Origin: Syntrophaceae bacterium
GTDB lineage: Bacteria > Desulfobacterota > BSN033 > UBA1163
Length of the DNA stretch: 32,393 nt
Assembly (NCBI GenBank): GCA_013388645.1
Contig: JACAEV010000157.1
Location: 1 to 32,393, forward strand
Reading direction: 5' to 3'
Part shown: in pieces, positions 20,503-32,393 of the stretch
Numbering within the stretch: the stretch's first letter is position 1
Layout: the number at the start of each line of letters is the position of its first letter
The notes under the pieces: model-generated
Told to the model about the DNA's origin: nothing
Seen by the model: the letters and a program-made list of their open reading frames with translations, nothing else
The model's database searches: none
Position numbers and translations under genes: made by a program

Positions 20503-20979
20503 TCACGCACCACTTCCCTGGGAGATCTGTTTCACTAATTGGATATGCCTATCAGACATCTTGATGAATCGGACACCCATTCCACGATTTACAACCTTAT
20601 CCTCGGGGACATTGACATTTGACCACACGACTTGGGCGGTGGCCTTCACAGGTTCATCACCAGGAGCCATCATGGTCAGGTGAAAAACCTCCCCAATCGG
20701 TAGTGGCCTCTTACAGCAGATAAACGCCCCACCTAAACTAATATTTTTCACTTCTGCATCGATCGTTCCGTCGGGGATTTCCATGGACACAGGCCAATTA
20801 ATATCCATTCTCGGATGTTGACGTCTCTGCTCTCCGGCCTCTGGAGATAATTTCACAGGAGCATGAAGATCGAGGTCAGTGCGATTATGGATTTTCCAAA
20901 AGTAGTAGACCAAAAAGATGACGACGAACCCTAAGAAGCATATAATTCCTCCAAAAGCGAGTATGGCGTTCATGCCCAT
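20503..20979 (-). CDS. Membrane-anchored PilZ domain protein (c-di-GMP receptor)
   Basis: The 158-residue protein has one N-terminal membrane helix (about residues 5-28, ILAFGGIICFLGFVVIFLVY) and a cytoplasmic PilZ domain (about 50-150). Both c-di-GMP contact motifs are present: RRQHPR (52-57, RxxxR type) and NISLGG (79-84, matching the D/NxSxxG motif). MGVRFIKMS near the end closes the PilZ barrel. It should sense c-di-GMP at the membrane. The ribosome site AGGAG lies 6-7 nt before the ATG. It lies 133 nt downstream of pilY1 on the same strand, so it may share control with the minor-pilin operon, in which a c-di-GMP-type riboswitch is also found. Confidence 0.9.
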   Translation of the reverse strand: MGMNAILAFGGIICFLGFVVIFLVYYFWKIHNRTDLDLHAPVKLSPEAGEQRRQHPRMDINWPVSMEIPDGTIDAEVKNISLGGAFICCKRPLPIGEVFHLTMMAPGDEPVKATAQVVWSNVNVPEDKVVNRGMGVRFIKMSDRHIQLVKQISQGSGA

Positions 20980-21112: not shown

Positions 21113-24100
21113 TTAGAAAACCGTCCTCCAATAAAGGGGGATGATATTTCTCTTATTCGATATCTCCGGAGAATAGACGCCCCCCCCTACCCCTATATAT
21201 CCGACTAACTCTCCTTTTACGATTCCAATCACCACTTGGGATGGAATTCCGGCCCCGATCGCAAGGGATCGATCGGATTTATAAATGGTCGGGGGCTGAC
21301 CATCGGTATCATTGGTTAAGTCAAGATTAAACATTGCCATTCCAGTCTTATACTGTAATGCATAGACCCTTCCGGTTCCTCCTTTTAAAGAACAGATGTC
21401 CCCATCGTCCGGATAAGATGGGGTAAAGGTCGTATAATAAACCGCCCCCGAATAGATAACCGGGGAGGCAAGACATTTCTCCCCCTTGTTTTCAAGGGTA
21501 ATATACCAACCGTTTTTATTTTTCAAATCATTTAGAATTTGGTTCTGGAGAATGATATCCTCACTCGTTGGATTGGGTTTTTGCAAAATATCGCTGGTGA
21601 CATCCACCAGATTGGATTCGGTTAAGGGAGTGGAGGGATTCGTGTCCTTAAGCCCGTATAATCGATTCTGAGTAGGAAAGCCCACCGTACCGGTTTCTTG
21701 TTTTGGATTCTCTCGATCTCCTGCTCCAAAGTAAACCCATTCATATGTGGATTCTGGAGACACATCGGGCGGATAGAATATTTTTCTTTTCTCACTCGAG
21801 GACTGGTTGGATTTAAAAATCACCTTTCCCGTCCAAGCATTCGTATTGTTTAAATTTCCGACATCAAATCGCCAGAGCTGTCCTCCCAAATCTCCAACGT
21901 AAAGTCGATCAATCTTATAGTCTCCATTGATATCCAGGGCGGCGATATCACTCGGGATGGAATAGGTCATGGCCGTGTTTTCATTTTTTGAGAAACTCCA
22001 GAGTAACGAGCCATTTTCAACATCGATTGCATAAATGGCATTGCCCTTTTGTTCTGAAGATCCACAACTTCCATTAGGGTCATTACATGGATCGTAGCCC
22101 CCCGCAAAGAAAGCAACGACCTTCTTCCCTTCTCCATCCGCAACTTCTCTGATCACCGGAGTGGACCATGTCTGCCCCAGTCTTCCAAAACCTGTTGTAA
22201 TTTCATGGCCCAATAAAGGGGATGAGGTAGGGGGGGCAATCTCCCATAAAAATCTTGGGGAATCAGGATCGGTCACATCCAAGGCGATATATCGGTCTCC
22301 CCCCCTTCGCAGCCCAAAGAGGATGATCGCTTTGGTGACCACACCACTTTTATTTTTTTCAACATAGGCTCTTGGAGACCCATCGACAAAGACTTGGATT
22401 GTATTGTAAGTTTCGAAATCTTTTAATTTTGGCAATAAGCTGGGTGGGATAAAAGCCCATAATTCCCTTCCATCAACGTCACCAAAAGCATGGAACATCC
22501 CGTCATTGGCGCCTGCATAGATCACAGACTTGTTGGAGTAGTGAATGATCAGCGGCCGTGAGTGAATAAAAGCTCCTAAGATCCATTCTCTCCAAGTCTG
22601 AGTTTCTTCATCAAACCATTTTCTTTTTTCATTCCGATCCCCATTTGAATTCCAATCATAAGAATCATATCCATGAACAAATTTGATAATCCTTTCCCTC
22701 TGAGTGGGATCTGAGGAGATACCCAATTTCGAATAAGTGATGTTGGGGTTATCAACCTTGAAGGCATTTTCTGCCTCGGTCAATAACTTTTTATTCGTGA
22801 GTCCCACATAGGTATAAATTTGTCTTGGATCGCTCATTAAATCCCGATCCCTTAATTTTTCTCCAACCCCTCCAAGCTCAACCTCTCCTCCATCCAATCC
22901 CGAACTCCAGTAAGATTGAGCATTTTTATCGATCTCATTTTGAGGCGTTATGGCCAGGATGGGAGGAGTGGCTGCATCGATCACATCTCCTATCTCAATG
23001 TTTCCTCCCGACTGATCTGCGATCCCAAATTTTTTGATGTTGCCATTCCATAAACTTTTTAGGGTCGGTTTAAACATCGCCAAGTAAAGTCGGTTCATCG
23101 AACTTGTGCTTTCCATCTGACTGATCGGGACAACTGGTGCTACATAGGAAGTTGATCTGGCAAGGAGGTTGAGGATATAGTCTTTGATGTCCATCAAGGT
23201 CTGTTCAAGTTGAGAGGGGTTTTCAGCAAAATAGGCATAGCCTGAAATATTCTGCGTCCCTGGGTCTGTCGTGTTGCTTGAACAACTGGTGATGCCCGAT
23301 GGATAGAGCTTTCCGGAAGGAATGACGTAGGTGCCCGTGATGGAATTTTCAACCGATTGATTGTCCGTTCCCCCGTAATAGGCTGCCCAGTTTAAGGTAT
23401 TCCTGAGGTTGTTAGGCAAGGGCGCTCCAAAACCTACGACAAATACTTTATATCCTGCATCTCCAAGAGCCTTTGCCATGGCGATTGTCTCTCTCCTTCT
23501 TTTATACTGATCGGATTGTGACTCTGAGCCATTCCCATTGCAGGCCAGCGTATCCTCGCCGTCTGAAATTAAAATGACATACTTGTTTCGGCATGCCTTC
23601 GCATTATCCCCGCTCTTGTGATAATCAAGATAAAGTTTTGCCTCTTTCAGGGAGCTTGCGAGATGAGTCCCGCCGCTGGCCCCCGCGCTATTGATAGAGC
23701 TCCATATGGCACTATAAGAAGTTCCAATTCCATTAATCAATCGGTTACAACCGGAAGAGTAATTATCCCCTGAATCGGTTCCACAGTCATAAAATCTCAT
23801 ATATCCCAATCTCATGCTGAGGGTATTCTCATCATTGATATCTATCGCTCCATCAGGGGTTGAAACAGGATAGGCATCAAGGATACTTTTAATGGCTCTC
23901 TTCGCGATGGCAACCCTGCTGCAATTCGTGGTATGAGTTCCACTTGAAGTCTTGTAGAACCCAGTAGTATCACTACAAGATGAGTCGCCATATATTGGAC
24001 CAGACTGAGAATAAGGAATATCATTACATTGATATGTATGCCCTGTACCTGATTGAGAATAATATGGACCATTATAATTATTATCATAGGTATTTTTTGT

Positions 24101-24304
24101 GCAATTGCTGTTTTCATTTACATATAAGGTACTCCCTGCCGGTGTCCAGTTCATACTACCAGACAAATCAAGGACAAATAATATATCCGGGGGGATCTGC
24201 TGGATGGTCTGGTCAAGAACATAAACATCCGTATCAGCCGCAAAAGTATAAGTGAAAGGGGCTAACCCAACCAATAAAATGAATACATAAAACTTCTTCT
24301 TCAT
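21113..24304 (-). CDS. pilY1: PilY1 tip adhesin/assembly protein with VWA domain (complete copy)
   Basis: The 1063-residue exported protein has a signal peptide (about 1-23) and a von Willebrand A domain (about 40-390) with an intact MIDAS: DLSGS (46-50), a Thr in GGTHLASSLKEAK and ILISDGEDT. The PilY1 beta-propeller domain fills the C-terminal half (about 560-1063), with IHSRPLIIHYSNKSVIYAGA, LRRGGDRYIALDVTDPDSP and the calcium-loop candidate DINGDYKID. PilY1 caps the pilus with the minor pilins and affects surface sensing and adhesion. After the MIDAS the VWA domain carries an insertion (about 55-115) rich in Tyr, Ser, Cys and Asn with two YSQSG units. A strong ribosome site AGGAGG precedes the ATG; pilX ends 13 nt upstream. 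Confidence 0.93.
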   Translation of the reverse strand: MKKKFYVFILLVGLAPFTYTFAADTDVYVLDQTIQQIPPDILFVLDLSGSMNWTPAGSTLYVNENSNCTKNTYDNNYNGPYYSQSGTGHTYQCNDIPYSQSGPIYGDSSCSDTTGFYKTSSGTHTTNCSRVAIAKRAIKSILDAYPVSTPDGAIDINDENTLSMRLGYMRFYDCGTDSGDNYSSGCNRLINGIGTSYSAIWSSINSAGASGGTHLASSLKEAKLYLDYHKSGDNAKACRNKYVILISDGEDTLACNGNGSESQSDQYKRRRETIAMAKALGDAGYKVFVVGFGAPLPNNLRNTLNWAAYYGGTDNQSVENSITGTYVIPSGKLYPSGITSCSSNTTDPGTQNISGYAYFAENPSQLEQTLMDIKDYILNLLARSTSYVAPVVPISQMESTSSMNRLYLAMFKPTLKSLWNGNIKKFGIADQSGGNIEIGDVIDAATPPILAITPQNEIDKNAQSYWSSGLDGGEVELGGVGEKLRDRDLMSDPRQIYTYVGLTNKKLLTEAENAFKVDNPNITYSKLGISSDPTQRERIIKFVHGYDSYDWNSNGDRNEKRKWFDEETQTWREWILGAFIHSRPLIIHYSNKSVIYAGANDGMFHAFGDVDGRELWAFIPPSLLPKLKDFETYNTIQVFVDGSPRAYVEKNKSGVVTKAIILFGLRRGGDRYIALDVTDPDSPRFLWEIAPPTSSPLLGHEITTGFGRLGQTWSTPVIREVADGEGKKVVAFFAGGYDPCNDPNGSCGSSEQKGNAIYAIDVENGSLLWSFSKNENTAMTYSIPSDIAALDINGDYKIDRLYVGDLGGQLWRFDVGNLNNTNAWTGKVIFKSNQSSSEKRKIFYPPDVSPESTYEWVYFGAGDRENPKQETGTVGFPTQNRLYGLKDTNPSTPLTESNLVDVTSDILQKPNPTSEDIILQNQILNDLKNKNGWYITLENKGEKCLASPVIYSGAVYYTTFTPSYPDDGDICSLKGGTGRVYALQYKTGMAMFNLDLTNDTDGQPPTIYKSDRSLAIGAGIPSQVVIGIVKGELVGYIGVGGGVYSPEISNKRNIIPLYWRTVF

Positions 24305-24317
24305 GGACCATAGCCTC

Positions 24318-24797
24318 CTATTCTTTCACTACCTCAAAAATGGATTCATCCTTGGGCAGTATCCTTACCACATTTTGCTCGATGACGGTTGTCGATTTGT
24401 GGCCTGCTCCGGTTAAATCATTTCCTTTTGATTCGACCCAAAAATAGGCATATAAATTATTGATGGAAGAGAATCCCTTGGGTGGCCCAATTTTATTTGG
24501 ATCAAAGTCAATTTTTACTTCAGCATGAGTGGGATTTTGATTTTGAGGATCGGAAAAGGGATTATAATTGTACCGGTCCGGAACAAAGTTCACATACTTC
24601 GATAAAACGATATTAACGCCACCCTCTGCCGCATAGAACGCATCCGTCGATTTTCTTTTTTCTCCCGAGAGCATGATTTCAAAGGTGGAGGTAAAGGTGG
24701 ACGCCAGACCAATGAGGGTCAATACGATCATCATGATTAAGACGATGACTAATGTCGCCCCCGATTCATTTATTAAGTGTTTCTCTTCTTTATTCAT
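24318..24797 (-). CDS. pilX: Minor pilin PilX (copy 1)
   Basis: The 159-residue protein has a prepilin-type start: cleavage after Gly in NESG, then ATLVIVLIMMIVLTLIGLA as hydrophobic helix. Position +5 of the mature protein is Ile, not the usual Glu; loss of Glu5 is typical of PilX/GspK subunits that sit at the pilus tip. GEKRKSTDAFYAAEGGVNIVL after the helix is the PilX N-terminal signature. The short C-terminal part has no Cys. A good ribosome site (GAGGGA) precedes the ATG. It lies between pilW and pilY1, the normal order of tip complex genes. Confidence 0.88.
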   Translation of the reverse strand: MNKEEKHLINESGATLVIVLIMMIVLTLIGLASTFTSTFEIMLSGEKRKSTDAFYAAEGGVNIVLSKYVNFVPDRYNYNPFSDPQNQNPTHAEVKIDFDPNKIGPPKGFSSINNLYAYFWVESKGNDLTGAGHKSTTVIEQNVVRILPKDESIFEVVKE

Positions 24798-24844
24798 ATC
24801 TAATTCCCTCTTTCAAGAGAAGTTTCAGGCTAAAGGAAATGCCC

Positions 24845-25534
24845 TCACATTTTTTTTAAGGCTAAATTTCTTAATGCCACCGTTGAAGTTAAAGTCCTCG
24901 GAGTGATCATCTTTAATCGGTCGTCTTCTGGGTTGGCCTGGACTGGTCTGGCTGTGAGGCTGATGCGGAGGGCAATCACTTTATCCCTGTTCATATCGAT
25001 GGTCCCGCAATTGACCCAATGGTCCACCACTCCATCTTGGGTCGCCTCATCACCGATGATCCCATCTCTTCCACAGGTAAAATCCAATGCCTCGACATTC
25101 CTTAATAGGGCTTCGGTGGTGGCATTCCCTCCGTCGACCGTCAGCTGTCTTTCTAAGGTCGTCCCATTTAAGGTGTAAGTGATGGCGTGGGCTTCGGAAA
25201 TTAAGGGAGGACCGAGAGGGTTTGAAGGATCCTTCTGATAGTATTCATACCACACCGTGATTGAATTTCCAGCAACCTGATAAGGGATGTTCGGAATATG
25301 GATCGCCGAGGTGGTGTTATCATAATCAAATCCTGTCATGCTCAGGTCTCTCACTAAAATTTCCATGGCATTTCTGATATCCTGTTGAACCTCGGCAACC
25401 TGGTCCTGAACGGTATAGGCTCTGCTTTGGGCAATGAAGATACGATAGAATCCAGCCACCACGATCCCAGCAATGACCATGACCACTAACAATTCCACCA
25501 GGGTAACGCCTCGCTCATTGAATTTGATTCTCAT
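24845..25534 (-). CDS. pilW: Minor pilin PilW (copy 1)
   Basis: The 229-residue protein has a class III prepilin leader with cleavage after Gly in NERG, mature start VTLVELLVVMVIAG, Glu at +5. Downstream, FIAQSRAYTVQDQVAEVQQDIRNAMEILVRDLSMTGFD is the PilW hallmark. The C-terminal globular part contains two Cys (about 150 and 175) that could form a disulfide. The segment VQDQVAEVQQ recurs almost unchanged in PilW copy 2. It is a core component of the priming tip complex. A gap of 47 nt separates it from pilX. Confidence 0.9.
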   Translation of the reverse strand: MRIKFNERGVTLVELLVVMVIAGIVVAGFYRIFIAQSRAYTVQDQVAEVQQDIRNAMEILVRDLSMTGFDYDNTTSAIHIPNIPYQVAGNSITVWYEYYQKDPSNPLGPPLISEAHAITYTLNGTTLERQLTVDGGNATTEALLRNVEALDFTCGRDGIIGDEATQDGVVDHWVNCGTIDMNRDKVIALRISLTARPVQANPEDDRLKMITPRTLTSTVALRNLALKKM

Positions 25535-25562
25535 AAAGGATTTGCTCCTTTTCCTTTTTCAT

Positions 25563-25934
25563 CTACGAAGTTCTGAAAATAACCGAACGAAAACCCACCG
25601 AATGGCTTGTCTTATCGTTCCATTGGATGGTAATCGTAATTTCTTTAACCGTATCGTTGGGTGGGGCCGCATTTGGAACCACTACCCAGCTTCTCGAATA
25701 ATTGATCCCAGTGGACCCCTGCATCTCGTCATTCCCCGTCACCACGTTGTCCCACAAAGATACCTTTAAATTCTCTAACTGATCCTGAGCGAATGTTGCC
25801 GCTTCCGTGATATGGCAACCAAAGGAATTATTATTCGTCGTCTGAACCATGAGCCCTGTTAATCCCAATATGGCAATGGATAAAAGGACTAAGGAGACGA
25901 GCACCTCAACTAATGAATAACCTTTCTTATTCAA
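25563..25934 (-). CDS. pilV: Minor pilin PilV (copy 1)
   Basis: The 123-residue prepilin starts MNKKGYSLVEVLVSLVLLSIA: cleavage after Gly5, Tyr at mature +1, Glu at +5. The PilV signature LGLTGLMVQTTNNNS is followed by ITEAATFAQDQLENLK. The start is TTG at 25934, overlapping the fimT stop by 8 nt in another frame, the same arrangement as in copy 2. The C-terminal part is short with ITIQWNDKTSHSVGFRSVI, close in layout to copy 2 (TVTVRWTERGPHAVSFTTI). Confidence 0.88.
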   Translation of the reverse strand: MNKKGYSLVEVLVSLVLLSIAILGLTGLMVQTTNNNSFGCHITEAATFAQDQLENLKVSLWDNVVTGNDEMQGSTGINYSRSWVVVPNAAPPNDTVKEITITIQWNDKTSHSVGFRSVIFRTS

Positions 25935-26364
25935 TTTTTATCTTCCCTGTCAGCCCGGATACACGGACCGTAGTGGACCCTTTTGAATTATTCAGGGTGA
26001 TTCTTCCATCTGCCGCTCTCGAATTGGGAAAGAAGGTAATCAGATTTCCTGCAAAAGTGGTTTGATATTTCACCCCTGTGGGCATGGTTTGAGTCACCCC
26101 TTCTGTCACCCAATTTCCTCCGGTGTCTTGATATTGGAGGAAGTAACGGTCATGAGCAGGTTCAAAAATAACCTGATAATGGGTGTGATTTGAAATAGCC
26201 TTAAGCTGGGCGACACGCATGATCGAAACCACATCTCGAGTGGCACTTCTCAGCCGGTAATTCGTTAGCCAAGTACTGATATTCGGAGTGGTAAGCAGAG
26301 CCCCAAAGGCTAAGATGACCATGACAACGATTAATTCCACCAATGTCACTCCTCTTTGATTCAT
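25927..26364 (-). CDS. fimT: Minor pilin FimT/GspH (copy 1)
   Basis: The 145-residue prepilin starts MNQRGVTLVELIVVMVILAF, cleavage after Gly5, Glu at +5. It is followed by TPNISTWLTNYRLRSATRDVVSIMRVAQLKA, the GspH/FimT signature, and ends TGKIKIE. It is the first gene of the minor-pilin operon and carries an unusually elaborate leader: sigma-54 promoter (26602-26616), GEMM-I riboswitch (26440-26577) and intrinsic terminator (26381-26430). A ribosome site AAGAGGG lies about 11 nt before the ATG, just after the terminator T-tract. Confidence 0.9.
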   Translation of the reverse strand: MNQRGVTLVELIVVMVILAFGALLTTPNISTWLTNYRLRSATRDVVSIMRVAQLKAISNHTHYQVIFEPAHDRYFLQYQDTGGNWVTEGVTQTMPTGVKYQTTFAGNLITFFPNSRAADGRITLNNSKGSTTVRVSGLTGKIKIE

Positions 26365-26380
26365 CTGTCGATTACCCTCT

Positions 26381-26430
26381 TAAAATTAAAAACCGGATTC
26401 CCGATTAGGCCGTGCCACGGAAATCCGGTT
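26381..26430 (-). terminator. Intrinsic terminator in the fimT leader (riboswitch expression platform)
   Basis: A perfect 9-bp stem, AACCGGATT with AATCCGGTT (26422-26430 and 26391-26399 as read on the minus strand), is followed by TTTTT and an AT-rich tract. The 22-nt loop contains a small inner stem CCGT/ACGG. It lies right after the riboswitch aptamer and before the fimT ribosome site, so it most likely controls read-through into the operon. The 5' arm (TAACCGG) can also pair, with one bulge, with CCGGGTTA of the aptamer 3' side, which would prevent the terminator. Confidence 0.75.
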
Positions 26431-26439
26431 ATCTCATTC

Positions 26440-26577
26440 ACCTCGGTAACCCGGCCATCCCAAGGTTTTGGGATCCGTGGCTTTCCCCGCCTGCGCCATC
26501 TCTGGAGCAGCGGGCCCCCCGCCGGCTATGGCGGGCAGGCGTCCTACGATTACTCGTAGTTTGGCTTTATCGGGTTT
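26440..26577 (-). promoter_or_regulatory. c-di-GMP-I (GEMM-I) class riboswitch, with an insertion in its core
   Basis: Read on the minus strand, the order of conserved GEMM-I parts is as follows. GCCAAA is followed by a perfect 6-bp hairpin CTACGA/TCGTAG capped by a GNRA tetraloop (GTAA), then GGACGC (26539-26544). The junction AAAGCCACGG (26475-26484) comes next, then a second hairpin ATCCCA/TGGGAT, then GGCCGGGTTACCGA (26443-26456). Between GGACGC and AAAGCC, normally contiguous, lie 54 extra nt (26485-26538). GEMM-I RNAs bind c-di-GMP, or cGAMP in Geobacter-type variants, and often control pilus genes. The base before CAAA is C where reference sequences carry the ligand-contacting G (or A), so ligand choice is uncertain. 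Confidence 0.82.
26485..26541. repeat. GC-rich palindromic element inserted in the riboswitch
   Basis: This is a 54-nt insert (26485-26538) plus shared edge bases, very GC-rich in an AT-rich region. Its ends are inverted copies: CGCCTGC at 26488-26494 and its complement GCAGGCG at 26535-26541. Inside are a perfect 6-bp hairpin CCCGCC/GGCGGG (26518-26523, 26530-26535) and a second hairpin with a GNRA-type GAGA loop. No second copy occurs in this window. It resembles a small REP/MITE-like element; family unknown. Confidence 0.6.
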
Positions 26578-26725: not shown

Positions 26726-27916
26726 TTAAAATATTTCTCTCCAACGGTTCATTTTTAAAGGAGGAACGATACTTTTTAAATGATTTGACACTCCGCTACA
26801 ATAAATAAACCCTAAATCTCCACCACTCCCTGCTGTAACAGAAGCAGTTCCGCCCGATAGAAGACCACCTGTCAGATTCTTTTCCCCGCTTCCTGTGATG
26901 ACGACTGACCCCGTCGTCAAGATGACTCCATACCAGGTGAAATCCCCGTTGACCACGAGATTCCCTTCAACGAGAAGAAGGCCTGCCCCATGGGAGCCCC
27001 CTGCGAGTGTCAATGTTTTATCCCCATTCATATTGAAATAAATAATATTCATTGGACCGCTGTAAGTAATTGGAAGATTTGAATCATGACTGATAGGCAT
27101 TCCCCAGCTATTTGAATATCCAGTTAATGTATGGTTTTCACTATAACTATATTTGAAATTGGCATCTCCTTTTATGTAATCAATCATCTCTTTGATTGGC
27201 AGGATCGGGAGGAGTGGATAGTTCATTCGTGTCATTTTTGGGGGTGAACCATCGATGGGAGGATTATCCAATTCTATAATGGGTGGAAGAGTGGTAGTAG
27301 GAGTCATCACACCGGGCTTATGATGGATGGATGCACAACCATTATATCCATTGATATAAGTTGAATTTCCTTGAATGGAAATCGGCCTCTCCGAATAAAT
27401 GGCAGCAGGGGGATCATACCCAGAGCTTTTTCTTATCTCTACTTCTAATGCCTTATTCCCTCCATCTCTTGTAAAGCCAAAGCTTCTTAAAATATAAATC
27501 GGGGCTCCTCCGTAAGTCACAACTTGATTCATAGAATCTATTTTATGTTTTATTTCAACACCATAATCTAATTTAGTCTGTAGACTTAGATAGGAGTTTG
27601 GGTTAGCAGAGGAATAGCCTATCTGGGTTGCTCCTTTCCCAGGATAGCTTGCAAGGAGAACTTTCCAGTTAGGATTGGTTGGATCGCTATCGACTATTTC
27701 ATGAGTGGCCCCCTCTCTGAATCGCCCCATAAACTCATGGATCCCCGCTTCAGCAACATAAAAGGCTTGAACCGATGTCCTTTCGTTACCTGCGATGAGG
27801 ACGTCAACCATGCTTGTATTTAAAGCATTAATCCCGATGAGCGTAGCGACTAAAAGCAATAGCATCCCTAAGATTAATGCCACTCCTTTTTCTTCGCCGA
27901 TTTTCATTGTCTTCAA
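26726..27916 (-). CDS. Enlarged PilX-like minor pilin (copy 2)
   Basis: The 396-residue protein has a prepilin start: cleavage after Gly in EEKG, mature VALILGMLLLLVATLIGINA with Leu at +5 instead of Glu, as in PilX/GspK. AGNERTSVQAFYVAEAGIHEFM is the PilX N-terminal signature. It is more than twice the length of PilX copy 1. The C-terminal 200 residues are rich in Gly, Ser, Thr and short beta strands (NGDKTLTLAGGSHGAGLLLV, VNGDFTWYGVILTTGSVVIT), suggesting a beta-solenoid-like domain. Two Cys lie at about residues 198 and 376. The start is TTG at 27916 or ATG at 27907. No PilY1 gene follows; the next downstream element is the sigma-54/riboswitch region. Confidence 0.8.
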   Translation of the reverse strand: MKTMKIGEEKGVALILGMLLLLVATLIGINALNTSMVDVLIAGNERTSVQAFYVAEAGIHEFMGRFREGATHEIVDSDPTNPNWKVLLASYPGKGATQIGYSSANPNSYLSLQTKLDYGVEIKHKIDSMNQVVTYGGAPIYILRSFGFTRDGGNKALEVEIRKSSGYDPPAAIYSERPISIQGNSTYINGYNGCASIHHKPGVMTPTTTLPPIIELDNPPIDGSPPKMTRMNYPLLPILPIKEMIDYIKGDANFKYSYSENHTLTGYSNSWGMPISHDSNLPITYSGPMNIIYFNMNGDKTLTLAGGSHGAGLLLVEGNLVVNGDFTWYGVILTTGSVVITGSGEKNLTGGLLSGGTASVTAGSGGDLGFIYCSGVSNHLKSIVPPLKMNRWREIF

Positions 27917-27938
27917 CTTTCTTCTTCCTCTGATCGGG

Positions 27939-28739
27939 TTAAAGTCCCATATTCCTCACCTGGATATTGGTGAACAATGTCCTTCTCCGATATCCCCCCT
28001 CCCCCTTATAGTCGGGATCGATTAGATTTGTTTTGGAAGTCACTACCAATTTAACCAATCGAATCTCGGAGGGGTTGGAAGTAACATTTCCATTTGCATC
28101 ATAATAGGTAAATTGGAGGCCTTCGATATTTTCGGCCACGGGCTGGGCACCTCCCCCTGTATTCTCATTTCTTCGCAGAACGGGCTTGCCTCCACTCATG
28201 CCAAGGCTGTAGGTGATCGCCTTAACGATATAGACCGGTTCATTGGCCAGATGGTCTTCGGTTAACGAAGTCGTTAAAGTGAGGGTATCAGAAACGATGT
28301 TCTGAATTAAATAATTATTCTGTCCATTCAAACACAAATATTTCTTTTTATCCGTGTTAAAGGAGCTTGCATTGGTCACCTTTAACTGATTCGTTTCTTT
28401 TGGAGCGTTTTGTTTTAATACCCCAACCTGGTCCGCCAGGAGGATGGTGATCGAGTTATTAGCAGGGGTGATGATATGGTTAAATCCGTTAATTGCCCCA
28501 AATATTGCCAATAAGTTGCCTCCGTAGCCAGCCATTCGGATTTCCCGGGTCATTTGATCGACTGCCACTCTGATATGTTGTTGTATCTCTGCTACTTGAT
28601 CCTGAACCGAGTAGGTTTTATGTTGGCGGATAAATATTTGATATAGAGCGGCGATTAGGATACTGCTCAGCACCAAAGCGATGAGCAATTCGATGAGGGT
28701 CAGCCCATGCCTGCCCTTAACAATTCTCCAGTTCATCAT
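27939..28739 (-). CDS. pilW: Minor pilin PilW (copy 2)
   Basis: I choose the ATG at 28739, which overlaps the pilV stop (ATGATG/TGA) and gives 266 residues starting MMNWRIVKGRHGLTLIELL. The longer frame from 28790 would add 17 residues read from pilV and an over-long leader. Cleavage follows Gly in GRHG; Leu is at +1 and Glu at +5. FIRQHKTYSVQDQVAEIQQHIRVAVDQMTREIRMAGYG is the PilW hallmark and parallels copy 1. The C-terminal domain is longer than in copy 1 and ends RRTLFTNIQVRNMGL. It lies 22 nt before pilX copy 2. Confidence 0.88.
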   Translation of the reverse strand: MMNWRIVKGRHGLTLIELLIALVLSSILIAALYQIFIRQHKTYSVQDQVAEIQQHIRVAVDQMTREIRMAGYGGNLLAIFGAINGFNHIITPANNSITILLADQVGVLKQNAPKETNQLKVTNASSFNTDKKKYLCLNGQNNYLIQNIVSDTLTLTTSLTEDHLANEPVYIVKAITYSLGMSGGKPVLRRNENTGGGAQPVAENIEGLQFTYYDANGNVTSNPSEIRLVKLVVTSKTNLIDPDYKGEGGYRRRTLFTNIQVRNMGL

Positions 28740-29113
28740 TTCGATCTGATCGTTGTAAAAGAAACGGCGTGAGGTCCTCGTTCTGTCCATCGAACCGTCA
28801 CGGTAATGGTCTTCATTGAATTTCCTGAATCCTCCGCCACCTCAATGAACCGTGTGAAAAGAGTGCCCGGTACTATGCCTTCATCATGGATTCCGTGATT
28901 TAAATTAGAGTCGTTATAAGACAGGTTTTTCAAATATTCCAATTTATCCTGGGCTAAAATAGTGGCCTGGGTCATATCATGACTAAAATGATTACTCCGG
29001 GTGGAGGTGATTTGCATGGCGGCAATGCCAAGGAGGCCGACTGCCAAAATAACCAGAGCGGCCACCACTTCAATTAGAGTAAACCCTTTTTGACGTTTAA
29101 GAGCATTATTCAA
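28736..29113 (-). CDS. pilV: Minor pilin PilV (copy 2)
   Basis: The 125-residue prepilin starts MNNALKRQKGFTLIEVVAAL, with cleavage after Gly10, Phe at +1 and Glu at +5, the only one of the eight prepilins here with the canonical Phe. LLGIAAMQITSTRSNHFSHDMTQATILAQDKLEYLKNLSY is the PilV family segment. The start is TTG at 29113, overlapping the fimT copy 2 stop by 8 nt, as in copy 1. Its stop overlaps the pilW start. Confidence 0.88.
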   Translation of the reverse strand: MNNALKRQKGFTLIEVVAALVILAVGLLGIAAMQITSTRSNHFSHDMTQATILAQDKLEYLKNLSYNDSNLNHGIHDEGIVPGTLFTRFIEVAEDSGNSMKTITVTVRWTERGPHAVSFTTIRSK

Positions 29114-29567
29114 TTCTTACCCTCCCCGTCGCAGTGGTCAGTGTAATCCTTTTTTGAGCTCCCTTGTTATTAATGAGTGATACCCCTCCTGGAGAAGAGG
29201 TGGAATTTGGATTGAATTGTGCAAAGGGTTTTCCACCTAAGGCACCGTTGGGTGGAAACGTATTATTAACAAATTGCACTCCGCTCGGAAGATGGATAGG
29301 AGCTCCTTCAGGAATTAATCCACCTGAGGACCGATAAAGCTGACATGAATTTGCATCAAAAGCCACCCCGTAGGGAATGTTGGTCGAGACCGCTTTCATC
29401 TGTGCTGTTCTCATTGTTGAAGCCACATCTCTTGTGGCACTCCTTAGACGATAATTAGGTAACCATGCTCCGATATTGGGGATCAATAATACAGCTCCAA
29501 TGGCAATGATGACAAATACGACCACTAATTCTATTAAGGTGACTCCTTTCTTGTTCATTCGTTTCAT
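29106..29567 (-). CDS. fimT: Minor pilin FimT/GspH (copy 2)
   Basis: The 153-residue prepilin starts MKRMNKKGVTLIELVVVFVI, cleavage after Gly8, Val at +1, Glu at +5. It is followed by IPNIGAWLPNYRLRSATRDVASTMRTAQMKA, almost the same as copy 1, and ends TGRVRIE. A Gly-rich ribosome site (GGGGTGAGGA) precedes the ATG. The C-terminal domain differs from copy 1 apart from the end. It is first in its cassette and has its own sigma-70 type promoter (29598-29625), in contrast to copy 1. Confidence 0.9.
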   Translation of the reverse strand: MKRMNKKGVTLIELVVVFVIIAIGAVLLIPNIGAWLPNYRLRSATRDVASTMRTAQMKAVSTNIPYGVAFDANSCQLYRSSGGLIPEGAPIHLPSGVQFVNNTFPPNGALGGKPFAQFNPNSTSSPGGVSLINNKGAQKRITLTTATGRVRIE

Positions 29568-29597
29568 GTTATATCCTCACCCCTTTTGGCTAAATTG

Positions 29598-29625
29598 ATT
29601 TTATTTAATAAAATAGTTTTGTCAA
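29598..29625 (-). promoter_or_regulatory. Sigma-70 type promoter of minor-pilin cassette 2, with palindrome over the -10
   Basis: On the minus strand TTGACA (29620-29625), 16 nt, then TAAAAT (29598-29603) lies about 30 nt upstream of fimT copy 2. The 17-bp perfect palindrome ATTTTATT-T-AATAAAAT (29598-29614) covers the -10 box and could be an operator, though AT-only palindromes also arise by chance in AT-rich DNA. Confidence 0.5.
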
Positions 29626-29772
29626 TATATTTTACTCTTTCGAGGAGGCTTCGTTTTACAGGAATTGACATTCCTTAACAGGTTTTCAAAAAAAATTCGG
29701 AAGAGTTGAACTTCTTGAGCAACTATTCAGGAAAGAACAGTCTTTCGTGTATAGGTATTGGTAAAGTTATTC

Positions 29773-29825
29773 GTTTCGTCATTCGGTTATTTACTGAACG
29801 GGCTTCGTAGCCATCGCCTTAACCC
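29773..29825 (-). repeat. Second copy of the dispersed repeat seen before dnaJ
   Basis: On the minus strand 29797-29825 starts GGGTTAAGG and matches 1256-1284 at 24 of 29 positions. 29773-29787 matches 1369-1383 at 14 of 15 (ACCGAAT, then ACGAAAC). The two blocks are 9 nt apart here and 84 nt apart at the dnaJ site. It lies in the 291-bp gap between the lipoprotein and fimT copy 2, in which I see no gene. A short pair GGAAT/ATTCC near 29665 is the only other structure noticed. Confidence 0.6.
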
Positions 29826-29858
29826 ATAGCGTGGCAGCAGATACGGGGGGCCAATGAA

Positions 29859-30845
29859 TCATCGAAAATCAATGGCCAATGTATAGCGCTGTATGGTTTT
29901 GGCCCCTGAGTCATCCGACACTTCAATTTCGACAGGATGAGTCCCTTGATATTCTTTTCGAATCTCCCATCTTATCAATCCTGTCTTCTCATCCATCTGC
30001 ATCCCTTTGGGGCCTGTCTTCAAATGAAATAGGATGGGCTCGTTGTCTGGATCAGCAGCTCTGACTTGATATAGATACGTCGTCTTTTCAACAGAAGTCG
30101 GTGGAGAGGAAAGGATAACAGGAGGGCTATTGGAAATAATAAGGGGCTCAGATTTCTTTGGAATACCTAAAGTTTCTCGATCGTCAGGGGTAACTTTCAC
30201 AACGACTGAATCTCCTTTTTTAAAATGTCCCTTCTCGAGAAACTCTCCCCTTTCATCATTTAAAACGTTTCCATTTATTTCCCATTGATAAGTATAAAAA
30301 ATAAAATCTCCATCCAAATCAGAGCTTTTAATATTGACTTTTAATTGGTCCGTCGCATAAGCAATCTTGGGTTCAATCCATACCTCTTGTATGACCGGTG
30401 GAGAGTTAACTATCTTTGTAGGTGCTGATAAAAATGGTGTTCCCTCGACCTTTCCATCGGAAGGCGTCACCCTCGCCTGGAGGAGATCCCCCTTTTTGAA
30501 GGAGCCACCTTTTAAAGTATTTTTATTCTCTCCGACCATTTCTTCGCCATTTTTCATCCACTGATATTGATAGGTGATGGGGTCCCCGTCTGGGTCTTGA
30601 CTCTGGATAAATAAATTTAATTCACTATCTTTATTTGGCTTATCTGGAAGGATGCTAACAGAAGAAATCACCGGAGGGGTATTGGGTTTCGATTTAAGAT
30701 CCGGCCCTTTTTCTTTCCCACAGGAGAGAATACTGAAAAGAAAAATAGTTATAACGAAGAAAGGGAATATCCCCATAGATCGCCACCGATTTGTGACATC
30801 CTTCTTTTTACATGAAAAAATAAAGATAGCTCCTTTTTTCATCAA
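29859..30845 (-). CDS. Lipoprotein with Ig/cadherin-like repeats
   Basis: The frame opens with TTG at 30845. The ATG at 30776 gives a standard lipoprotein signal, MGIFPFFVITIFLFSILSCG, with the acylated Cys in the ILSC box, and is the more likely start (305 residues). Two similar repeats of about 95 residues follow, each with PPVI at its start, DPDGDPITYQYQW or DLDGDFIFYTYQW, KKGD and VTPxD. A third, Put_Ig/cadherin-like unit follows with ADPDNEP and WEIRKEYQGTHPVEIEVSDDSG. The Asp-rich loops suggest calcium binding. It lies 78 nt after the truncated pilY1 and may act as a surface or tip-associated adhesin; no specific family is recognised. Confidence 0.75.
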   Translation of the reverse strand: MMKKGAIFIFSCKKKDVTNRWRSMGIFPFFVITIFLFSILSCGKEKGPDLKSKPNTPPVISSVSILPDKPNKDSELNLFIQSQDPDGDPITYQYQWMKNGEEMVGENKNTLKGGSFKKGDLLQARVTPSDGKVEGTPFLSAPTKIVNSPPVIQEVWIEPKIAYATDQLKVNIKSSDLDGDFIFYTYQWEINGNVLNDERGEFLEKGHFKKGDSVVVKVTPDDRETLGIPKKSEPLIISNSPPVILSSPPTSVEKTTYLYQVRAADPDNEPILFHLKTGPKGMQMDEKTGLIRWEIRKEYQGTHPVEIEVSDDSGAKTIQRYTLAIDFR

Positions 30846-30923
30846 CTTGGATGGAAGGTTGAAAATTGCCCTTTACTATACCTCTCTCATGTATGAAAGT
30901 CAAAATAGAAATGGTTACTAAAG

Positions 30924-32393
30924 TTAGAAAACCATTTTCCAGTTGAGTGGGATGAGGATCTTCTTTTTCAAAACTTCGGGGACATAAACGCCTCCACCTA
31001 TCCCTACATATCCTGAGGACATCCCCCCAATGATGGTTACGATGACACTTGACGGAATAGCAGGTCCAATGACCTTGGATCGGTCACTCCGTTTAATGAC
31101 TTCCCCTTGGGTTGTATCATTCGTCGCATCTAAATTAAAAACCGCAGTTCCTGTTTTATAGTCAACCGCATAGAAAATTCCGCTGCCTGGACCAAGGTAA
31201 CAGATATTGGTTTGATTCTGAACAGTAGGAGCAAAGGTTGTGTAATAGACGACTCCATAGAAGACGACCGGACTGGAAAGACACTTTTCACCTGGTCTTT
31301 GATCTAATTTTATGTACCATCCATTTTTCCCTCTCAATTCATTGATAATACTAGTTTTGATAGAATCAGGAGTACTGGGTTCTTGTAATAGATCTTCGGT
31401 CACATCTTTTAAATCACTTTCTGTCATTGGAGTATGGGGGTAAGGTGTTTTGTCCTTGACAGCATAAAGCCGATTGATATAGGTGAGATCCCCTTTCGGG
31501 TTTTCTCGATCTCCTGTGCCAAAGAAAAGCATTTCATAATTGCCGGAGTCATTTTCAAGTGTGACATCTGGCGGATAAAATATCTTCCCATTTCCTTGAA
31601 ATATAATATTCCCTGTCCAGCTGGCGACATTACTCGCATCCCCAATGTCAAACCTCCAAATCCTCCCCCCTGTATCCCCAACATAAAGCCTGTCAATTTT
31701 TCCATCTCCGGTCACATCCAGTTTCGCGATATCACTGGGAATTGAATAAACCATCCTGGAAGGATCCTCATCTTTTGTATATCGCCATATCTTTTCCCCT
31801 GTTAAAATATCCACTACATAAATTCCTCTTCCCATCGTATCTGCGTTTAACACAGGGATGTTATCCTGGTTAGGATCGTATCCGGCAGCAATAAAAGCCA
31901 CCCACTTCTCGCCGGACCCGTTTCGAATCTTTCCAATCTGTGGGGTGCTCCAGGTCTGGCCTAACTCTTTATAATCGGTAGTGTTATATGTTGTGGTTTC
32001 AAATATTCTTCCAGATGGATTTATCTCCCATAGAAATTTTGGGTTAAGACGGTCGGTCACGTCCAATGCGGTGTAGCGATTACCACCTCTTCGCTGCCCG
32101 AAGATAAGGATAGCCTTCGTGATATTGTTAGATCCATCTCTTTCTACATATATCTTCGGAGACCCGTCAACAAAAAACTCAATTAATGACCCATTTAAAT
32201 TTTTTAATTTGGGTAGTAAGTTTGAAGGAATAAAGGCCCAGAGTTCCCCTCCGGTGGCATCATCAAAAGCGTGGAGCATGCCATCATTTCCTCCGACAAA
32301 AATAACGGATTGATTTGACCCGTAATGTAAAATCAACGGTCTTGAATGGATATAAGCGCCGAGGCCCCAGCACCTTTTTACATTGGTCACACC
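30924..32393 (-). CDS. pilY1: PilY1, C-terminal beta-propeller part, runs off right edge (copy 2)
   Basis: The frame is open to the window edge, so the N-terminal half (presumably signal peptide and VWA domain) lies outside; the GTG at 32390 is only an internal codon. The 490 visible residues match the second half of the complete PilY1: IHSRPLILHYGSNQSVIFVG, FGQRRGGNRYTALDVTDR, the calcium-loop candidate DVTGDGKID, LYVGDTGGRIWRFDIG, and the same C-terminal end pattern (IPLNWKMVF versus IPLYWRTVF). It is a clear paralogue with many differences, so the duplication is not recent. It probably closes a further minor-pilin cassette beyond the right edge. Confidence 0.92.
   Translation of the reverse strand, partial: GVTNVKRCWGLGAYIHSRPLILHYGSNQSVIFVGGNDGMLHAFDDATGGELWAFIPSNLLPKLKNLNGSLIEFFVDGSPKIYVERDGSNNITKAILIFGQRRGGNRYTALDVTDRLNPKFLWEINPSGRIFETTTYNTTDYKELGQTWSTPQIGKIRNGSGEKWVAFIAAGYDPNQDNIPVLNADTMGRGIYVVDILTGEKIWRYTKDEDPSRMVYSIPSDIAKLDVTGDGKIDRLYVGDTGGRIWRFDIGDASNVASWTGNIIFQGNGKIFYPPDVTLENDSGNYEMLFFGTGDRENPKGDLTYINRLYAVKDKTPYPHTPMTESDLKDVTEDLLQEPSTPDSIKTSIINELRGKNGWYIKLDQRPGEKCLSSPVVFYGVVYYTTFAPTVQNQTNICYLGPGSGIFYAVDYKTGTAVFNLDATNDTTQGEVIKRSDRSKVIGPAIPSSVIVTIIGGMSSGYVGIGGGVYVPEVLKKKILIPLNWKMVF

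Follow-up and report, generated by a model that had tools for sequence, protein, structure and literature searches.

In GEMM-I riboswitches, an A at position 20 marks c-GAMP preference. The ligand is contacted by G20, A47 and C92, and an interhelical C-G pair is universal (PMC4744006), with position 20 as a selectivity factor (PMC9262584). The closest described families, RF01051 and RF03167 (c-di-GMP-I-GGC), have a P2 with a GNRA loop, a P3, the residues G20, A47 and C92, a C44 equivalent and a terminator-based expression platform, all of which were also found in the window (the whole stretch of 32,393 nt that was analyzed). The window departs from both families in carrying two additional hairpins at the C44/G45 joint and in having C-G where they have G21-C46. 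Residue numbers are those of Vc2, and C44, G45, G46, A47, G20, G21 and C92 denote the equivalent window positions. The coordinates of all features are collected in Table 1.

The aptamer, read from 26575 to 26442 on the (-) strand, matched RF01051 at 36.2 bits (cut-off 35, E 0.001) with the 54-nt insert retained, so that the GEMM-I aptamer originally claimed was recovered by Infernal even in its interrupted form, and the low score was attributed to the insert. Against RF03167, the same aptamer with its insert scored 38.8 bits, below the cut-off of 59, and the intact paralogs L001-L003 scored 63-70 bits. The continuous P2 strand GGACGC-AAAGCC, typical but not strictly defining of the class, is replaced by a strand with 54 nt between GAC and GG; as the window is still accepted by the curated RF01051 model, this break was regarded as a variant of the lineage. 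Six other RF01051 matches above the cut-off were identified in the same genome, five of them uninterrupted and one (contig 153) carrying, at the corresponding position, an insert that is also 54 nt long. No family other than GEMM-I was matched on the window strand in the Rfam scan. The insert was also considered as another known RNA, and this was rejected, as the sole match was to anti-hemB on the opposite strand (weak, E 0.17).

The 54 extra nucleotides are real, as judged by the gapless fit of the remainder to uninterrupted aptamers. Excision of exactly 54 nt (after GGAC at 26541 and before GGAAAGCC at 26486) left a sequence that aligns without gaps to L001 and L012 (65 and 66 of 75 positions identical, respectively), and an intact paralog matched in this way itself scores 72 bits; 26486-26539 is a placement equivalent to 26487-26540. 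The limits first proposed, 26485-26538, were corrected, since an excision there ends in ...GCAAAGCC with a C-C clash; the intact paralogs show the true joint, GAC/GGAAAGCC, and those most similar to the window read GGRCGGAAAGCC. The insert lies within the P2 strand, one step earlier than the GGACGC/AAAGCC joint originally named, at C44/G45. On one side of it is the P2 internal loop with its GAC strand, on the other the two base pairs carrying AAAGCC, and AAAGCC, with the ligand-stacking A, remains joined to its base pairs. The uninterrupted leaders proposed for comparison exist both in this genome and within its genus (L001, L002 and L012); they have the antiterminator design of the window and, for L001 and L012, a similar core, but no hairpins at the joint. 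G015_C28 was considered as an exact empty orthologous site and rejected, as it has the same controlled gene family without upstream synteny and is a related intact leader.

Table 1. Positions of the riboswitch, its expression platform and the genes that follow (numbering of the window).
Feature	Position	Strand	Evidence or remark
Whole c-di-GMP-I (GEMM-I) aptamer including insert	26442..26575	(-)	RF01051 match
G equivalent to ligand-contacting G20 of Vc2	26565	(-)	Unpaired conserved G preceding paired column, Rfam alignment
P2 5' part: CC (pairs with GG 26485-26486), AAA, hairpin CUACGA-GUAA-UCGUAG with GNRA loop, GAC	26541..26564	(-)	Sequence, fold, 14-homologue alignment
54-nt expansion, two tandem hairpins without unpaired linkers, between C44 and G45 equivalents	26487..26540	(-)	Gapless match after removal, 14 homologous inserts, covariation
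Hairpin 1, GCCU G CCCGCC-AUAGCC-GGCGGG GGGC	26514..26540	(-)	Fold; covariation
Hairpin 2, CCGCUGCUCC-AGAGAU-GGCGCAGGCGG	26487..26513	(-)	Fold; covariation; loop conservation
GG closing P2 (G45, G46) and first A (26484), ligand-stacking A47 equivalent	26484..26486	(-)	Invariant in 15/15
P3 arm and 3' strand GGGUUACCG, C92 equivalent in UUACCG	26445..26482	(-)	RF01051 alignment
Antiterminator 5' strand GCCACGGAUCC, part of P3	26471..26481	(-)	8-bp perfect complement TCCGTGGC at 26414-26421
Antiterminator 3' strand, within terminator	26414-26426	(-)	
Intrinsic terminator AACCGGATTTCCG...CGGGAATCCGGTT and U tract	26384..26430	(-)	13-bp inverted repeat, 92% complementary
GspH/FimT-like pilin, first controlled gene	25927..26364	(-)	N_methyl and GspH, both above Pfam cut-off
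pilV-like	25563-25934	(-)	N_methyl match and gene order only
PilW	24845-25534	(-)	Pfam
PilX	24318-24797	(-)	Pfam
PilY1	21113-24304	(-)	Pfam
PilZ-domain protein, after pilY1	20503..20979	(-)	PF07238, E 2.4e-18

Two tandem hairpins were predicted in 14 of 15 inserts, and the complete four-way junction was the unconstrained optimum in five sequences. The insert of one member, G008_C109, is rearranged. In the 14-member alignment, 91% of cells paired in the whole two-hairpin structure vs. 46-64% in slid structures, with values of 92% for hairpin 1 (four pairs changed on both sides) and 90% for hairpin 2 (three pairs changed on both sides). The covariation was significant: 7 pairs and 15 cells had two-sided changes, vs. 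3.4 +/- 1.2 pairs and 3.9 +/- 1.5 cells in shuffles, although counts of this kind are somewhat inflated by the relatedness of the 14 sequences. Chance was excluded on the basis of the 14 homologues and the covariation. The hairpin 2 loop (consensus AGARAU) was about as conserved as its own stem, unlike that of hairpin 1 (conservation 0.86 vs. 0.69), and the internal loop of hairpin 2 was about equal to the stems. The fold model suggests that P2 is most likely turned into a four-way junction of P2 base, P2 tip with the GNRA loop, hairpin 1 and hairpin 2. An extra structured element inside the aptamer, with halves able to meet, was upheld, but closure through GCCTGC/GCAGGC was not, as the window preferred two hairpins (probability of the 5' GCC pairing in hairpin 1 0.92 vs. 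0.08). This single stem can form in most members, and was rejected as the main fold because of its absence of two-sided changes and its low predicted probability. The outer pairing CGCCU/AGGCG can form in nearly all members, also without two-sided changes; a one-stem fold through it is possible, and the outer single stem may have a competing role.

Within the core, C26541 (C44 equivalent) was invariant in the alignment with the 14 homologues and the P2 loop is GUAA (26550-26553), consistent with a GNRA loop and interhelical C44-G83 pair, the G83 partner being judged from the alignment alone. The ligand contacts G20, A47 and C92 correspond to G26565, A26484 and a residue of UUACCG (26444-26449), with the C92 column placed by eye. 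The C before CAAA had been read as a changed ligand-contacting base; its column is paired in the Rfam alignment (partner G26485), and the contacting G is present at 26565, where GEMM-Ib (c-GAMP) would have A. Intact paralogs likewise have C21-G46 in place of G21-C46, so nothing in this pair points to a different ligand. Four GGDEF domains were found in the genome, each with the GD residue of c-di-GMP synthases. With G20, A47 and the GUUACCG strand kept as well, the proposed change of ligand was not borne out, and judging from the sequence, ligand choice of the window riboswitch is probably unaltered.

Seventeen genomes of the family were scanned with RF01051 and afterwards with R1, a model built on the expanded form. 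The expansion was found at the same joint in 14 GEMM-I leaders from 10 of the 17 genomes and three genera, and a 15th leader had a degenerate version; several expanded members fell below RF01051 detection and were recovered only with the tailored model. The insert was not a one-off, as homologous leaders carry the same extra structure, an outcome that the original prediction had itself named as speaking against an insertion. Synteny was seen at one expanded locus in two genera, whose upstream proteins are 76% and NifU-like proteins 90-92% identical; all four copies have the insert, including that on contig 153 of the same genome. Other expanded leaders preceded pilins, small Cys-rich proteins and proteins that by eye resemble sensor kinases. 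Several pilin-ortholog loci were unreadable by motif, and among the leaders that could be read by motif search only G010_C273 had GEMM-I, and with the insert. Across 395 genomes of the phylum (stricter filters with E <= 1e-8, matches outside the family read in part), the two-hairpin expansion was seen only in this family. A scan of genome contigs by pattern, for GEMM-I with 35-65 nt at the joint, returned four hits, all attributed to chance. Four leaders of sister family f2 (GEMM-I copies in G378, G178 and G399) had extra structure at the same joint as the window, but with one hairpin (UCCGC... paired with ...GCGGA or GGUGGA) where the window family has two. No description of the two-hairpin expansion was found in the open-access literature, mostly at the level of titles and abstracts.

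The expression platform had a predicted fold of -22.5 kcal/mol, and the P3 strand GCCACGGA was fully complementary to TCCGTGGC in the terminator 5' region. Similar complementarity of 8-13 bp was identified by automatic search in most expanded members, with no significant complementarity in G015_C116, G002_C6, G016_C186, G006_C151 and G008_C109; in multiply expanded members, the strand and terminator picked by this search are unsure. In G013_C50, the aptamer change GCCGCGG was mirrored in the terminator (TCGCGGC). After the first controlled gene, the rest of the minor-pilin operon occupies 21113..25934 (-). On the same strand, at 26726-32390, the riboswitch is immediately preceded by another minor-pilin/PilY1 cluster (PilX, pilin-like proteins, GspH and PilY1 beta-propeller).

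These arrangements suggest how the switch would work. The hairpins sit behind the nucleotide bridging P2 and P3 and before the two pairs holding the ligand-stacking A, and leave the ligand core unchanged. Binding of c-di-GMP would stabilize P3, so that its 5' strand GCCACGGAUCC would be unable to pair with the antiterminator strand; the terminator would thereby be released, and the element is predicted to be an OFF switch, with the terminator formed and the minor-pilin operon off at high c-di-GMP, and the antiterminator formed and the operon on when there is little c-di-GMP.

The observation of an interrupted GEMM-I aptamer was partly confirmed and its original interpretation partly supported. 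Sequence comparison establishes that the insert is shared, that its pairs covary and that the core is conserved; the element is most likely a working c-di-GMP-I OFF switch with the two hairpins built into P2 as an inherited peripheral expansion. A dead switch, in which a mobile palindromic element landed recently and broke the aptamer, had been proposed and is very improbable, as the core, terminator and antiterminator are all kept, and 14 leaders from three genera have this insert at one and the same joint, its pairs bearing compensatory changes. What speaks for such an event is that dispersed CGCCTGCC...GGCAGGCG palindromes occur in genomes of the family, that four stand-alone sequences match 14 nt at the start of most inserts, and that another dispersed element does occupy P3 in other GEMM-I copies. 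The dispersed palindromes have ends in common with the insert (GCCTGCCCGCCGTA in the four stand-alone copies), but are single, lie outside riboswitches and are without the two-hairpin architecture. Elsewhere in its own genome, the 54-nt element recurred only in the contig 153 riboswitch: a DNA search returned the element itself and that copy. An insert covariance model, built from the 14 copies and run on 23 class genomes with at most 150 candidates scored per genome, returned only the 14 GEMM-embedded copies and one weak match (E 0.0025), so that among the candidates scored, no convincing copy lay at a non-riboswitch locus, where those of a mobile palindromic element would be expected. Insertion of a palindrome in an ancestral copy, afterwards reshaped and retained, is plausible because of the dispersed palindromes in relatives, and the hairpins may derive from such a repeat.

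The hairpins might also act together as a second receptor, for a metal, ligand or protein or as a tertiary dock, by which the aptamer would be gated. The AGARAU loop and internal loop of hairpin 2, nearly as conserved as the stems, would fit this, as would the junction adjoining the ligand site and the conserved alternative pairing CGCCU/AGGCG, which could render the element bistable. However, the conserved unpaired part is small, no other Rfam family was matched on this strand, intact paralogs manage without the hairpins, and genes with nothing in common lie behind one and the same expansion, as would be expected of a scaffold more than of a dedicated second signal. That a further module for sensing or docking gates c-di-GMP binding through the loop or the alternative pairing is rather unlikely; if present, it would be a natural allosteric composite inside an aptamer stem, not in tandem. 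A switch to c-GAMP or another ligand through an altered core is scarcely credible: it draws on the C that replaces the second G of the Rfam consensus GGCAAA, but that C is the paired G21 equivalent, compensated by a G at 46 and swapped identically in intact paralogs, G20 is retained, and the four GGDEF domains found include none with the Hypr serine. In the c-di-GMP OFF switch preferred here, the hairpins would be an old inherited scaffold, most likely stiffening or positioning P2 for docking. Against this reading, related genes in these genomes are also controlled by paralogs that have no insert, so that the hairpins would be dispensable for switching in general.

These comparisons suggest that a four-way junction beside the ligand site is tolerated by the GEMM-I core and has been kept through the divergence of genera, with the same joint expanded otherwise in sister family f2. 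The lineage seems to add modules at three aptamer places (P2 joint, P3 tip and P3 bulge), and provides natural sets with and without peripheral helices for testing their effect on a riboswitch. The C44/G45 joint is pointed to as a permissive engineering site. Such expanded RNAs score near or below the Rfam cut-off, which is a warning for their detection.

Other GEMM-I leaders were noted in passing. Those of L012, L013, L047, L067, L068 and L071 precede small Cys-rich proteins (GYCDxD motifs), with a NifU-like protein nearby in four, and these loci are likely an uncharacterised c-di-GMP target operon. A different element, ACGCCTGCGTGCC...GGCGTGCAGGC, lies between GCC and ACGGG at the P3 bulge of other copies (L056:1448-1646 of G000:C101, L050, L052, L053, L058, L072, L080, L081, L082 and L090); its ends are scattered over intergenic loci (e.g. 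L127-L132), and it looks like a REP/MITE-like element recurring at the same riboswitch site. Multi-hairpin extensions of the P3 tip were observed in L039, L040, L041, L042, L043 and L057, and in L124 and L125, either on their own or alongside the two-hairpin insert; a different family of this phylum, f21, has them too. Still other families of the phylum have GEMM-I aptamers in tandem or repeated at close distance (L122 in G083 and L123 in G347).
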